Assembly: GCA_903837525.1 (NCBI GenBank)
Contig: CAILUU010000052.1
Span: 1-64,000 of the forward strand
From: an uncultured Bacteroidota bacterium
Lineage (GTDB): Bacteria > Bacteroidota > Bacteroidia > Chitinophagales > Chitinophagaceae
Direction of reading: 5' to 3'
DNA: 64,000 nt
Shown here: positions 55,453-63,202 of the stretch, piece after piece
Layout: every line of letters starts with the position of its first letter
How positions within the stretch are numbered: the first letter of the stretch is position 1
Notes under the pieces: model-generated
Database searches by the model: none
What the model was told of the DNA's origin: nothing
Seen by the model: the letters and a program-made list of their open reading frames with translations, nothing else
Made by a program: the position numbers and the translations under genes

Positions 55453-57678
<2,226 letters not shown>

Positions 57679-57703
57679 GTATTACATTTATACATATTTT
57701 TTT

Positions 57704-57737
57704 AATAGGTGGTTTGGTAACAACCCACCTATTTTTA
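57704..57737 (+). terminator. Terminator of katG
   Basis: AATAGGTGG (57704-57712) pairs with CCACCTATT (57725-57733) around a 12-base loop, followed by a T-rich run, 26 bases after the katG stop. Confidence 0.85.
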
Positions 57738-57770
57738 TTTTATAGAGATACTAGAAGAATTGCTTAGGCT

Positions 57771-57812
57771 ATATTTAATTAAGTAAAAAAGCAGTTTTAC
57801 TTAATTAAATAT
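57771..57812. repeat. Perfect 18-bp inverted repeat, likely two-way terminator
   Basis: ATATTTAATTAAGTAAAA (57771-57788) and its exact complement (57795-57812) flank the loop AAGCAG. It lies between katG and the convergent porin remnant, ending 11 bases from that remnant's stop. Confidence 0.85.
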
Positions 57813-57823
57813 ACATTTCGTTT

Positions 57824-58147
57824 CTAAAATTTTATAGTGACATTGGTGGTTAATGAATAGTTGTTTTTGTTATTTTTAAAAATAGGATTTTTGAATCATA
57901 CATTTTTCCTTCTACTCTATACAGTACTCTTTTATTTATTGAATAATCTACATTTGCTGGTACCCCCGAAACCTGAAACCCATTTGAAGTATTGGTAGAA
58001 ATAATTGTTTGATGATTTTGGATTTGCAAAATCATAACTGTAGTAAATTTCTCCATAACCACTAAATGTCCATTTTTTTGTGGAGTCATTTTGTGCAACT
58101 AAAAAAGTTGAAGAGAGTAGTAAAATTGCTAGCAAAAAGAGTTTCAT
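57824..58147 (-). pseudogene. Internally deleted, frameshifted outer-membrane porin gene
   Basis: From the ATG at 58147 one frame reads a signal peptide and barrel start (MKLFLLAILLLSSTFLVAQ, then TFSGYGEIYYSYDFANPK). Within about 50 residues it jumps: a second frame carries what looks like the last strands of a barrel (SGVPANVDYSINKRVLYRVE, then GKMYDSK). A third frame, reached by restoring one A in the A-run of GATTCAAAAATCC, gives IFKNNKNNYSLTTNVTIKF and a stop at 57824-57826. The C-terminal phenylalanine is typical of outer-membrane barrels. The middle, hundreds of residues in intact homologues, is missing. This is a large in-frame-breaking deletion plus one single-base loss. Confidence 0.8.
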
Positions 58148-58189
58148 TTAGAATATTGATTTATTTTTTAGCAATCACCAGATGAAGGG

Positions 58190-58270
58190 TCGTTGCGTAA
58201 AGTATACATATTTTTGAAAACAATGCAACGCCCTTGGCTTACGCACAGGGCTATAGAGGATACGTTGCTT
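58190..58270. repeat. GCAACG/CGTTGC hairpin region downstream of the Fe-S gene
   Basis: CGTTGC at 58193-58198 and at 58263-58268 can each pair with GCAACG at 58225-58230, and CCCT/AGGG (58231-58234, 58247-58250) adds an inner stem. It lies just past the stop of the minus-strand Fe-S gene and could be its 3' end structure or a degenerate intergenic palindrome. Nothing else is seen in 58148-58294. Confidence 0.4.
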
Positions 58271-58294
58271 GGAAAGAAATTAATAAACTAACAC

Positions 58295-59608
58295 CTACCC
58301 CATTTCCTGCACCCATTTATCTCTGTCCTCTGGGCTAAATTTCCAAGGGGCAAAATTATTTTCAATATTACTAAACATACCATTCCATTCTTGTGGGGCG
58401 TTGCCATCTTCCATAATAAGGCTACGGCGTAGCTCTACAATAATATCTAAAGGCGATATAGATACAGGGCATTCCTCTATACATGCATTACAAGTGGTAC
58501 AGGCTCTTAATTCTTCGACAGTTATGTAATCGTTTAGTAGGGTTTTACCATCATCTTTAAATTCTTTATTTGCGTTTATGTTTTTTCCAACTTCAGTTAG
58601 GCGGTCCCGTGTGTCCATCATTATTTTTCGTGGACTTAATAATTTTCCGGTAAGGTTTGCTGGGCAGGCGGCACTGCAACGTCCACACTCTGTACAACTA
58701 TACGCATCTAATAAACTTTTCCAACTAAGGTCCATTACATCTTTTGCACCAAATTTTTGTAGAGCTGCTTCTGTAGTAGGGGCATGCTCTGGCTGCATAG
58801 CATACAATACTTCGTTTTGTATACTTTTCATATTATCCATTTTGCCTGTGCTAGTTAGCCTTGCATAGTAGGCATTAGGAAAGGCCAACATTATATGTAA
58901 ATGTTTACTATACGGTAAGTAATTTAAAAAGGCTAAAATACCTATAATGTGCACCCACCAAGCACTACGCTCTATGGCTATTAAACTACTCGTACTAAAA
59001 TTGCTAAATAAAGTTGATAACCCACCGCTAATAATAAAATTACCTGTCGTATGGTAATGCGCTGCTCCTATTAGTTGTAATGCCTTATCTGTAGCATTCA
59101 TTAATAAAAACAAGCTCATTAAAATAATTTCTACAATTAAAATAGTATTGGCATCGCTACGTGGCCAACCATTTAAATCTTTACTTATAAACCGTTTTAA
59201 TTTTAAACTATTTCTTCTTATTAAAAATACTACACAAACTACTAATACCCCTAAGGCTAGTACTTCAAAAAAATTAATTAAAAAAGTATAAAAGCTGCCA
59301 AATATCGGTAGAAAAAGGCGGTGTGTACCAAGTATGCCATCTAACAAAATTTCTAACACTTCTATATTAATGATGATAAAACCTGCATAAATAATAAAGT
59401 GCATTACGGCAACGGTAACATTTTTAAACATCTTTTTTTGTCCAAGCGCCAATAATATTAAATTACGCCAACGTTGGGGTTTATTATCAGAAATATCCTG
59501 AGGTTTGCCTAAAAAAATATTACGGCGAATTTGCATAATATTTTTTGCAAAAAGCCAACTTGCAAATGCTAAAAGTGCACTAAAAAGTACTTGTAAAATA
59601 AGTTGCAT
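58295..59608 (-). CDS. Membrane-bound (Fe-S) oxidoreductase subunit
   Basis: The 437-residue protein has a membrane half with about five helices (residues 1-245), resembling a nitrate reductase gamma-type electron-transfer unit. A soluble half follows with two 4Fe-4S motifs, CTECGRCSAACPANL and CTTCNACIEECPVSI. It is the normal partner of the CCG-domain protein, whose gene here is 29 kb away at 28227. Together they would carry electrons from a flavoprotein or quinol to an unknown acceptor. Confidence 0.9.
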   Translation of the reverse strand: MQLILQVLFSALLAFASWLFAKNIMQIRRNIFLGKPQDISDNKPQRWRNLILLALGQKKMFKNVTVAVMHFIIYAGFIIINIEVLEILLDGILGTHRLFLPIFGSFYTFLINFFEVLALGVLVVCVVFLIRRNSLKLKRFISKDLNGWPRSDANTILIVEIILMSLFLLMNATDKALQLIGAAHYHTTGNFIISGGLSTLFSNFSTSSLIAIERSAWWVHIIGILAFLNYLPYSKHLHIMLAFPNAYYARLTSTGKMDNMKSIQNEVLYAMQPEHAPTTEAALQKFGAKDVMDLSWKSLLDAYSCTECGRCSAACPANLTGKLLSPRKIMMDTRDRLTEVGKNINANKEFKDDGKTLLNDYITVEELRACTTCNACIEECPVSISPLDIIVELRRSLIMEDGNAPQEWNGMFSNIENNFAPWKFSPEDRDKWVQEMG

Positions 59609-59796: not shown

Positions 59797-60288
59797 ATGA
59801 AAAAACAAATATTAACTGAAGAGGCAGCGTTAAAAAAATTAAAACGTATAGCGTTAGAGGTGGCAGAGCGCAATTTTAACGAAAAAGAATTATTACTGAT
59901 TGGTATTAAGGAAAATGGTATTGTAATAGCCCAAATTATTTCAAAACTTATGAAAGATGTTTTTACAGGCAGCATAAGTGTTGTGGCACTAAGTATGAAT
60001 AAAAAAAAGCCTACCACTATCACCATTGAAAAAGATATTGATGTTGATGGCAAAACAATTTTACTAATTGATGATGTAGCTAACAGTGGTCGAACTATGT
60101 TGTATGCATTAAAACCATTGTTAGAAAAACATCCTAAAAAAATACAAACCCTTGCTTTAGTGGAACGCACCCATAAAACTTTTCCGGTAGATGTGGATTA
60201 TGTAGGCCTTAGCATTTCCACAACATTAAATGAGCATATTACCATAGAAGTGGGTGAAGATAAAGTTATGGGTGCTTGGATGGAATAA
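59797..60288 (+). CDS. PyrR-like phosphoribosyltransferase
   Basis: The 163-residue protein has the PRPP-binding motif TILLIDDVANSGRT (about residues 86-99) and an N-terminal LLIGIKENGIVIA segment, as in PyrR and related type I phosphoribosyltransferases. Unlike a typical pyrimidine regulator it is not next to pyrimidine genes, so uracil salvage or another base-transfer role is possible. The start at 59797 follows a perfect hairpin. Confidence 0.85.
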   Translation: MKKQILTEEAALKKLKRIALEVAERNFNEKELLLIGIKENGIVIAQIISKLMKDVFTGSISVVALSMNKKKPTTITIEKDIDVDGKTILLIDDVANSGRTMLYALKPLLEKHPKKIQTLALVERTHKTFPVDVDYVGLSISTTLNEHITIEVGEDKVMGAWME

Positions 60289-60290
60289 GG

Positions 60291-60644
60291 TTACTCCATT
60301 GCATCTAAATTTTTTATCATTTGCTCTAGTACAAAAAAATAATTTTAAACAAAGTTTTCATCTTCAAAAAAATTAAACGACCGTATACTTAATAACAATG
60401 ATAAGTTATCATCAAATTATTTTAAATCGACGGTATTACCATTTTGCACCCATTCTTGGCAAAGAATATCCTTAATATCGGTTGAATTTTAAAGTAACAC
60501 TAATCCTTTACTGTATTTAGTTACAATACTATTCTCGACACAATTTCTAGTTCCTTTTTCCTCTTCTACAACAGATTAATTATTACAAAAAACGACTAAA
60601 CAAGTATATGCAAATAAGTAAAAGGCAATTATTTTCAATGACAT
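60291..60644 (-). pseudogene. Small lipoprotein gene broken by four TAA codons, no frameshift
   Basis: From the ATG at 60644 one frame runs 117 codons without a frameshift to a TAA at 60291-60293, interrupted four times by TAA (complements of 60576-60578, 60489-60491, 60417-60419 and 60345-60347). The translation is protein-like: a signal with a lipobox-like end (YTCLVVFC), then EEEKGTRNCVENSIVTKYSK, TDIKDILCQEWVQNGNTVDL, SIRSFNFFEDENF and FFVLEQMIKNLDAME. The W-containing middle recalls small lipocalin-like lipoproteins. It occupies most of the 412-base gap between the PRTase and TonB receptor genes. I checked every codon against the plus strand. Confidence 0.72.
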
Positions 60645-60700: not shown

Positions 60701-63202
60701 ATGAAAATATTTTTTTCAGCACTTTTTTTATTTCTTCTTTCTTCATCTATTGCTCAAAAAAAACAAGGTTGGGTAAGCGGTATTTTAATAGATGAAAGCG
60801 AGAAAACATTACCCAATGTATCGATTTCTATTTTAGGTAAAGCAACTGGCATTACTACAAATGATAGTGGCTACTTTAGAATAAAAGTTACGGCAGAAAA
60901 GGCATTTGCACTTATTTTTTCTTACACTGGCTATATTGACGTTCAAAAAAAATTTTACCTTAGTACGAATGAAGAAGAAAAAATAATAGTACGTATGCAA
61001 CTTAAAGGAAAAGTATTAGATGAAGTAATTATTAGCGATGAAAGAGATAGAAAAGAAGCTGGCTTAATAAAAATAAATCCAAAAAATGCTTTGGTGTTGC
61101 CTAGTACCATTGGCGGTATAGAGGGATTAATTAAAATTTTAGTAGGGAGTAATAACGAGTTAACATCGCAATACAGTGTACGTGGTGGAAACTACGATGA
61201 AAACTTAATGTATGTAAATGATTTTGAAATTTTTAGACCTTACTTAGTCCGCAGCGGTCAACAAGAAGGATTAAGTTTTATTAATCCGGAGTTAGCAAAA
61301 AGTGTAAATTTTTATAACGGTGGATTTCAAGCCAAGTATGGCGATAAAATGAGTAGTGTATTAGATATACAATACAAAAAACCAAAAGCATTTGGGGGCT
61401 CGGCCTATATAAGTTTATTAGAGCAAGGCCTACATATTGAGGGCTCCTCTAAAAATGAAAAAGCTACCTATTTGATGGGTGTACGAAACCGTAGCAATAA
61501 AAATATTTTAAGTAGTCAAGAAACAACGGGTGCATACATTCCCTCTTCAAATGATGTGCAAACTTTTGTTACCTATAAAGTAAACAGTAAAATTCAGTTT
61601 GAATTATTAGGTAATTTATCGTCAACTAAATTTTCGCTAATTCCGCAATCTGCACAAAAAACATCAGCAATATTTTCGCCTTTATTTACGGCAAATTTAG
61701 GATTAGATATTTTTTTTGAAGGACAAGAGAAAGATGCTTATAAAACAAGTCTGTTGGGCTTAACAACCATTTATCAGCCCAATAAAAAAGTACGTATAAA
61801 GGCAATGCTTAGTCGTTTTCAAAATACTGAAAACGAAAATTTTGATATAGCTGGTGCCTATTTATTTGGGGATAGAGATTTTGATAAAAGTAGTAGCACA
61901 TTTGGACAAATAACAAATCCGCTTGGTGCAGGGTACTATCAAAATTACGGTAGAAATAGTTTAAACATTACTGTTTATAATGCAACACTACGAGGAAGTT
62001 TAGATAAAGGAAAGCATTTTATACAATTTGGAAATGCCATAGAACAAACCAACATTACAGATAAGTTAAAGGAGTGGGAGTATCAAGATTCTGCTGGTTA
62101 TTCATTACCCTACTCCCCTACAAATTTAGCATTGTTTAAATCTATTAGTACAACCGCTACTTTATCTATTCAAAAATATAGTGGCTATGTACAAGATAAT
62201 ATTCTATTAGGCGATAGTAGCAAAAACATTAGTTTACAAGCAGGTGTACGCTACAATTATAATTCGCTAAATAAAGAGTTTTTAATAAGCCCAAGAGCGC
62301 AACTAAGCTTTAAACCTAATTGGCAAAAAGACATTGTTTTTAACATTGCTGCTGGTAGTTACAACCAACCTCCATTTTATAGAGAATTGCGTAATTATGA
62401 TGCTGTGTTGAATACCGATATTAAAGCACAAAGAAGCTATCAAGTTGTAGCTGGGTTTAATTATAATTTTAAAGTGGATAAAACTAAGCCCTTTAGGCTA
62501 ACAGCAGAGGCGTATTACAAAAGTATGCGTAACGTAAATACCTATGACATTGATAATGTAAAAATTAAATACAGTGGTACCAATAATGCTAAAGCTTATA
62601 CCACAGGTTTTGAGGCAAGGTTATTTGGGGAATTAGTTAAAGATGCTGAAAGCTGGATTAGTGTTGGCTTTATGCGTAGTAGAGAAAATTTAGATAACGA
62701 TATTTTTTATCAATATAAGAATGCTGCTGGGGAAATTATTACATCAAAAAGTGTAGATCAAACACCTGTTGATAGCATACGTAATAGTGTTGGTTGGGTT
62801 CGCCGCCCTACGGACAGGTTAATTACCGTTGGTTTATTTTTAGAAGATTATTTACCTACTAATAAAAATTTTAAATTTCATTTAAATGCATTGTATGGCA
62901 GCAATATGAGTTATAATATTCCAAATAGTGTACGGTATAGAAATGCACTAATCATTGAGCCTTACATACGTTTAGATATTGGATTAAGTGCACAGTTACT
63001 AAGCGAAAAAAATCTTCGACGTGGTCATAGTCCCTTTAAAAGTTTTCAAAATATTTGGGCAAGTTTTGAGGTATTTAATTTAATTGATAGGCAAAATACA
63101 ATTTCGTATCAGTTAATAAAAGATTTTGCAAATACTACATATGCTATACCTAATAGATTAACACCAAGGTTGGTAAATTTTAAAATAGTGGGTAAATTTT
63201 AG
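60701..63202 (+). CDS. TonB-dependent receptor with CarboxypepD-like domain
   Basis: The 833-residue protein has a signal peptide (MKIFFSALFLFLLSSSIAQ), then a CarboxypepD regulatory-like domain (VSGILIDESEKTLPNVSISI, GITTNDSGYFRIKV). A TonB plug (LPSTIGGIEGLIKILVGSNN, YSVRGGNYDENLMYVNDFEI) and a barrel ending LVNFKIVGKF follow. The plug resembles FecA/BtuB-like types more than the OMP_b-brl_3 receptors at 5.8 and 29.6 kb. The ligand is unknown; no SusD partner is adjacent. Confidence 0.9.
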   Translation: MKIFFSALFLFLLSSSIAQKKQGWVSGILIDESEKTLPNVSISILGKATGITTNDSGYFRIKVTAEKAFALIFSYTGYIDVQKKFYLSTNEEEKIIVRMQLKGKVLDEVIISDERDRKEAGLIKINPKNALVLPSTIGGIEGLIKILVGSNNELTSQYSVRGGNYDENLMYVNDFEIFRPYLVRSGQQEGLSFINPELAKSVNFYNGGFQAKYGDKMSSVLDIQYKKPKAFGGSAYISLLEQGLHIEGSSKNEKATYLMGVRNRSNKNILSSQETTGAYIPSSNDVQTFVTYKVNSKIQFELLGNLSSTKFSLIPQSAQKTSAIFSPLFTANLGLDIFFEGQEKDAYKTSLLGLTTIYQPNKKVRIKAMLSRFQNTENENFDIAGAYLFGDRDFDKSSSTFGQITNPLGAGYYQNYGRNSLNITVYNATLRGSLDKGKHFIQFGNAIEQTNITDKLKEWEYQDSAGYSLPYSPTNLALFKSISTTATLSIQKYSGYVQDNILLGDSSKNISLQAGVRYNYNSLNKEFLISPRAQLSFKPNWQKDIVFNIAAGSYNQPPFYRELRNYDAVLNTDIKAQRSYQVVAGFNYNFKVDKTKPFRLTAEAYYKSMRNVNTYDIDNVKIKYSGTNNAKAYTTGFEARLFGELVKDAESWISVGFMRSRENLDNDIFYQYKNAAGEIITSKSVDQTPVDSIRNSVGWVRRPTDRLITVGLFLEDYLPTNKNFKFHLNALYGSNMSYNIPNSVRYRNALIIEPYIRLDIGLSAQLLSEKNLRRGHSPFKSFQNIWASFEVFNLIDRQNTISYQLIKDFANTTYAIPNRLTPRLVNFKIVGKF

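Follow-up and report, generated by a model that had tools for sequence, protein, structure and literature searches.

The stretch of DNA analysed here (the window) comprises 64,000 nucleotides at the start of contig CAILUU010000052.1, from the assembly GCA_903837525.1 of an uncultured Bacteroidota bacterium. At positions 60291 to 60644 it holds a short frame that carries several internal TAA codons and no other stop, and in which no frameshift is visible. The question raised by this locus is whether the frame is what is left of a decayed gene, a gene whose TAA codons are translated, or a product of faulty assembly.

The interrupted frame and its intact relatives

The frame is encoded on the minus strand, running from 60644 to 60291, and comprises 117 codons from an ATG (60644-60642) to a terminal TAA (60293-60291), with four internal TAA codons and no internal TAG or TGA (Table 1). 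A preliminary description of the sequence had reported exactly this TAA-interrupted frame, without giving its strand. The plus strand over the same positions contained no useful frame and many stops. The G+C content of the interval was 26%, with values of 28% for window bases outside 54 large open reading frames (ORFs) and 24% for third codon positions. The genome itself is a draft assembly of 2.17 Mb and 55 contigs, with completeness rated at 100%, in which a whole-genome search found only one match to the remnant.

Table 1. Coordinates and strands of the remnant, its internal stops, the deletion junction and the flanking genes in the window.
Feature	Position	Strand	Evidence
Pseudogene remnant: codons 1 to ~100 and last ~17 codons of a ~300-codon lipoprotein gene, with four internal TAA	60291..60644	-	Translation; homology to open ~300-aa proteins; alignment
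TAA, codon 23, directly after signal-peptide-like start and cysteine	60576..60578	-	Translation
TAA, codon 52; sense codon in aligned intact relative	60489..60491	-	Translation; codon alignment
TAA, codon 76; sense codon in aligned intact relative	60417..60419	-	Translation; codon alignment
TAA, codon 100, at deletion junction; sense codon in aligned intact relative	60345..60347	-	Translation; codon alignment
Deletion junction (approximate)	60333..60350	-	Alignment; ~558 bases (186 codons) of closest intact relative absent
TonB-dependent receptor gene, open, divergent neighbour	60701..63202	+	ORF and domain search; beside intact lipoprotein gene in relatives
Phosphoribosyltransferase gene, open, convergent neighbour	59797..60288	+	ORF and domain search

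When its stops were translated as X, the frame matched open genes of relatives, the best match having an E value of 2.8e-9 at 29% identity to the N-terminal part in one genome. A profile built from 33 intact relatives recovered the remnant with about 50 bits (E ~9e-15), also through the N-terminal part, while homology of the C-terminal part rests on the alignment with the 33 intact proteins, in which the end of the remnant is aligned as VLEQM-KNLDA. The preliminary description had allowed that the frame would be a coincidence if no homologue matched across the stops; homology was found through all four stops and to either side of the deletion described below, and this homology, together with synteny with the TonB receptor gene described below, ruled out a chance frame.

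The closest intact copy was found in genome G075, and its protein is identical to one in JAGNRZ010000061.1 (Ferruginibacter sp. Go_SlAct_bin_416). In ungapped blocks, the remnant and G075 had the identical amino acid at 44 of 71 codons, and 55 of 109 residues (about 50%) were identical between the remnant and the nearest intact protein. The window ATG (60642-60644) did not align with the GTG start listed for the closest relative (L058 4936-4938) and may not be ancestral.

With an intact protein as the query, 34 of the 92 other genus genomes, all searched whole, gave a match at E <= 0.001. In 33 of these the E value was 5e-43 or lower, and the weaker match in G010 (E 3.4e-17) is perhaps a paralogue. 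The "one TAA" recorded for the copies in G066 and G086 was in each case the terminal stop, judged by coordinates. The intact proteins, some 300 residues long, begin with a signal-like segment and have a cysteine that is almost invariant. Searches of two of them against Pfam and NCBIfam gave no family above the cut-off, the intact lipoprotein showing a weak match to PF16270 (DUF4923, lipocalin-like; E 0.0088), and a Pfam search with the remnant gave no match. The structure predicted by AlphaFold2 for the G075 protein, with a mean pLDDT of 80, has a lipocalin-like domain and, after it, a mixed domain. The best Foldseek match to this model, and the only one below 1e-3, was the Bacteroides uniformis protein 2mhd (E 5.9e-4); next came the lipocalin-like structures 4qrl (E 6.8e-3) and 3hty (E 9e-3), with an unrelated large enzyme ranked between them. 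According to the model, therefore, the first domain of the intact parent is a predicted lipocalin-like fold. The reading of the frame as an inactivated, small lipoprotein-like gene was thus supported, except that the parent gene had about 300 codons rather than 117.

The missing middle of the gene

In the alignment with the 33 intact proteins, window codons 1 to ~100 fell on the beginning of the protein and the final ~17 on its very end, the ~186 codons between them being absent. The preliminary description had taken the frame to have decayed without insertions or deletions; this premise is ruled out by the alignment, which reveals a large indel that kept the frame. The codon arithmetic agreed, since removal of 186 codons from the 302 of G075, counted from its GTG start, leaves 116, compared with 117 in the window, and because of small in-frame differences in the linker the precise number matters little. 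The missing part holds 28 of the 33 columns that were invariant among 12 intact proteins. On the G075 model, 6 of the 10 strands in the first 167 residues are lost, as is the whole remainder but for the last helix.

In G075, the 8-base direct repeat GTAAAAAA is present at both edges of the deleted segment; the two copies share one codon phase, at a distance of 558 bases, which is a multiple of three. As a control, random pairs of sites were drawn from the G075 gene, and 22 of 2000 shared an 8-mer within 8 bases, draws less than 100 bases apart having been skipped and counted among the misses. In the other 13 relatives shown, the edge sequences were similar, not identical. A deletion between short, same-phase direct repeats is therefore likely, its placement and mechanism being derived from the sequence of G075, the one relative of sufficient closeness to locate it; an event of this kind, spanning 558 bases, would explain why no frameshift is visible.

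Taken together, these observations make us confident that the frame is an ordinary pseudogene: the parent gene, divergent from a TonB receptor gene, encoded an exported lipoprotein of some 300 residues whose first domain is lipocalin-like. Relative to the intact copies, the coding capacity of the remnant is destroyed by the loss of ~186 codons and by the four stops, and a working product of the parent's kind is not expected. In the proposed course of events, a deletion between short same-phase direct repeats would have removed the middle of the gene with the frame preserved, and AT-biased point mutation would have produced the TAA stops, either before or after the deletion.

Once the stops and the deletion are set aside, the remnant has barely diverged beyond what is seen in a working gene. 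In the alignable blocks, its second codon positions differed from those of G075 in 8 of 67 codons, and only 1 of 37 intact pairs at a similar receptor distance had a value as low. Compared with 32 other relatives, the excess divergence of the remnant over G075 was 0.1%, 2.3% and 1.2% at first, second and third positions, respectively, with a mean of 3.6% for amino acids, stops included. Among 18 columns conserved in the other relatives, the window deviated in four and G075 in two, both of the latter being shared with the window; the residues lost in the window only were an aspartate that is present in all other relatives aligned and a glycine present in 72% of them. By the NG86 method, dN/dS was 0.22/1.82 between the remnant and G075 and 0.14/1.38 for the receptor, values that carry little information because synonymous sites are saturated. 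Most of the branch separating the remnant from G075 probably predates the loss of the gene.

The draft state of the genome, with its 55 contigs, leaves a slight chance that the true gene is intact and that the interruptions come from mixed strains or from errors of sequencing or assembly. What the frame shows, however, resembles evolved sequence: its stops, a deletion, loss of an invariant residue and about 50% identity (55/109) to the nearest intact protein. The flanking genes are open, and no further copy was found in the genome. Neither assembly error nor strain mixture is likely to be the only cause, since either would have to account for the four stops, the 186-codon deletion and the loss of the invariant residue together.

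Stop codons and the genetic code

The preliminary description had proposed a comparison with homologues to see what the four stop positions encode. Three of the four lie inside ungapped blocks, where G075 has sense codons, and the fourth (codon 23) is in a variable linker after the cysteine. The exclusive use of TAA was examined by simulating neutral drift of the G075 sequence toward 70-80% A+T. TAA made up 56-66% of the stops that arose, and among runs with exactly four stops, all four were TAA in 9-21%. The suggestion that AT-rich sequence may explain the TAA-only pattern is supported by these simulations; all-TAA outcomes were common enough that the pattern needs no special cause, and a special process producing TAA only was set aside as unnecessary.

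The number of stops was less readily accommodated, being somewhat above that predicted from the otherwise low divergence of the remnant, which is a mild oddity. In a rough joint model of stops and drift, the probability of four stops with so few other changes was at best ~0.036, at a functional second-position divergence of 0.05, and fell to 0.016 at a divergence of 0.08 and to 0.005 at 0.119, the lowest value among intact pairs. The test is a weak one, since it used blocks that could be aligned and are conserved, in a stretch selected because of its stops. These values suggest a recent loss in which many stops accumulated by luck.

TAA was found to be an ordinary terminator in the window. Among 54 non-overlapping ORFs of at least 150 aa, the stop is TAA in 40, TAG in 10 and TGA in 4. 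The earlier statement that the surrounding genes all stop with TAA therefore does not hold, TAG ending both the flanking receptor gene (60701-63202) and the gene at 58295-59608. In a search for a TAA-reading tRNA, ARAGORN assigned anticodons at all 32 tRNA matches of the genome, for which 150 of 181 first-look candidates were scored, and none was UUA. One further tRNA-like call by ARAGORN in the same genome (L141 1613-1688), beside a tRNA-Met, had an unreadable two-base anticodon. The view of the preliminary description that a change of code is not supported was borne out, and the stop usage of the window together with the tRNAs found led us to reject such a change.

Translation through the stops has been proposed for other bacterial genes. 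An excerpt of one survey (PMC7918605) argues for a wide occurrence of in-frame stops in bacterial genes, with purifying selection acting on many such genes, and proposes frequent readthrough; its worked example is a single orthologous stop common to several genomes. The frame studied here resembles the genes described in that excerpt in having its stops within a recognisable gene. It differs from the readthrough candidates presented there in combining four stops with a large deletion and in having been seen in one genome.

On this background, the TAA codons might be read through or reassigned, making the 117-codon frame a short functional protein, and the unbroken frame, the little-diverged conserved blocks and the prevalence of in-frame stops in genes under selection, as argued in the survey excerpt, would fit such a reading. 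Against it stand the use of TAA as the terminator of 40 of the 54 ORFs, the absence of UUA among the anticodons at the 32 tRNA matches (the one extra call being unreadable), and the absence of ~186 of 302 codons, with 28 of the 33 invariant columns, in addition to the loss of the invariant aspartate. The four stops and the deletion in a single genome are, moreover, unlike the single shared stop of the example in the survey excerpt. With three fifths of its length gone, the gene makes a poor candidate for readthrough, and we consider this reading very improbable, keeping it at all mainly because divergence is low despite the four stops. The same degree of improbability is attached to a variant in which low-level translation of the shortened gene still proceeds across the TAA codons, as might be imagined for a sequence less diverged than a dead gene yet carrying four TAA.

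Comparable remnants in other genomes were sought with a read-through profile scan of 124 loci, representing part of the genomes, and down to an E value of 0.5 no second remnant was found there. One locus (L033) held an open N-terminal piece at which the contig ends, and profile matches at E 0.008-0.35 in four others (L058, L060, L077 and L082) resembled another lipoprotein by eye. Some weak matches to the remnant itself carry stops of their own, the best being in G044, a genome of the same order, where positions 1501-1680 of L012 matched at E 0.003 and contain two in-frame TAA; L012 was not borne out by the profile built from the intact proteins. That the first 22 codons alone are expressed as a minimal lipopeptide, consisting of the signal peptide, the cysteine and two more residues, has a negligible probability, for although the start, the hydrophobic signal-like segment and the cysteine all precede the first stop, the remainder of the gene is decayed and no second truncated remnant was present among the 124 loci scanned in part of the genomes.

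Gene neighbourhood and comparison with known systems

The reading of the frame as a pseudogene was examined in its genomic context. In relatives, the intact lipoprotein gene adjoins the same TonB receptor gene on the opposite strand in 20 of 29 receptor loci, which were taken from the highest-scoring of the 81 other genomes where the receptor was matched. In the other nine, no profile match at E 0.5 or better was present within the flank of <=1.5 kb; a gene relocated beyond that flank would escape notice there, but the separate search described above took in whole genomes. The nearest named relatives of the receptor gene are from metagenome-assembled genomes labelled Ferruginibacter, Chitinophagaceae, Chitinophagales or Bacteroidetes, and the source of the window is probably itself Ferruginibacter-like.

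On the other side of the locus, the convergent neighbour in the window (59797-60288) is not the same gene as in the closest relative (L058 3386-4033) and in L004 (2453-3100), where it is a gene that we take to be ribulose-phosphate 3-epimerase-like. Because the convergent neighbour differs between the window and the closest relative, this side of the locus has been rearranged. A second remnant, of a BBP2-type porin gene (PF07642), was observed about 2 kb from the lipoprotein remnant, at 57678-58295 on the minus strand. Its N- and C-terminal pieces are in different frames and ~240 residues are missing, while the copy in G075 (L158) is open, with 357 codons. Internal deletion thus seems to account for the decay of two nearby genes, with the frame lost in the porin gene and kept in the lipoprotein gene.

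The genomes of the genus that were compared range from 1.7 to 6.9 Mb. Those with the lipoprotein gene had a median size of 4.4 Mb (n=34) and those without it 2.65 Mb (n=58), a difference with a Mann-Whitney p of 6.5e-13 in a test that ignores the relatedness of the genomes and counts incomplete genomes in. Since the gene is mostly absent from the small genomes of the genus, its loss fits the 2.17-Mb genome to which the window belongs.

Neither a new code nor a new kind of gene is represented by the frame. The remnant illustrates gene decay within a Bacteroidota genus of widely varying genome size and by itself matters little; its broader meaning is that a deletion between same-phase repeats can leave a short, stop-bearing frame without a frameshift, which can mimic recoding when the sequence alone is read. 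Among the nearest known counterparts is the uncharacterised lipoprotein of about 300 aa of Ferruginibacter-like genomes, with which the remnant has the N-terminal blocks, the C-terminal end and the genomic position in common, and from which the window copy differs by the lack of ~186 codons and the presence of four stops. Shrinking bacterial genomes form pseudogenes by internal deletion and nonsense mutation. The remnant is like these pseudogenes in having an intact orthologue in relatives, in the loss of most of its coding sequence, in its several premature stops and in the lack of an intact copy in the searched genome. It differs from them in that the deletion keeps the frame, so that the two ends of the former gene read as one short frame with TAA as its only stop.
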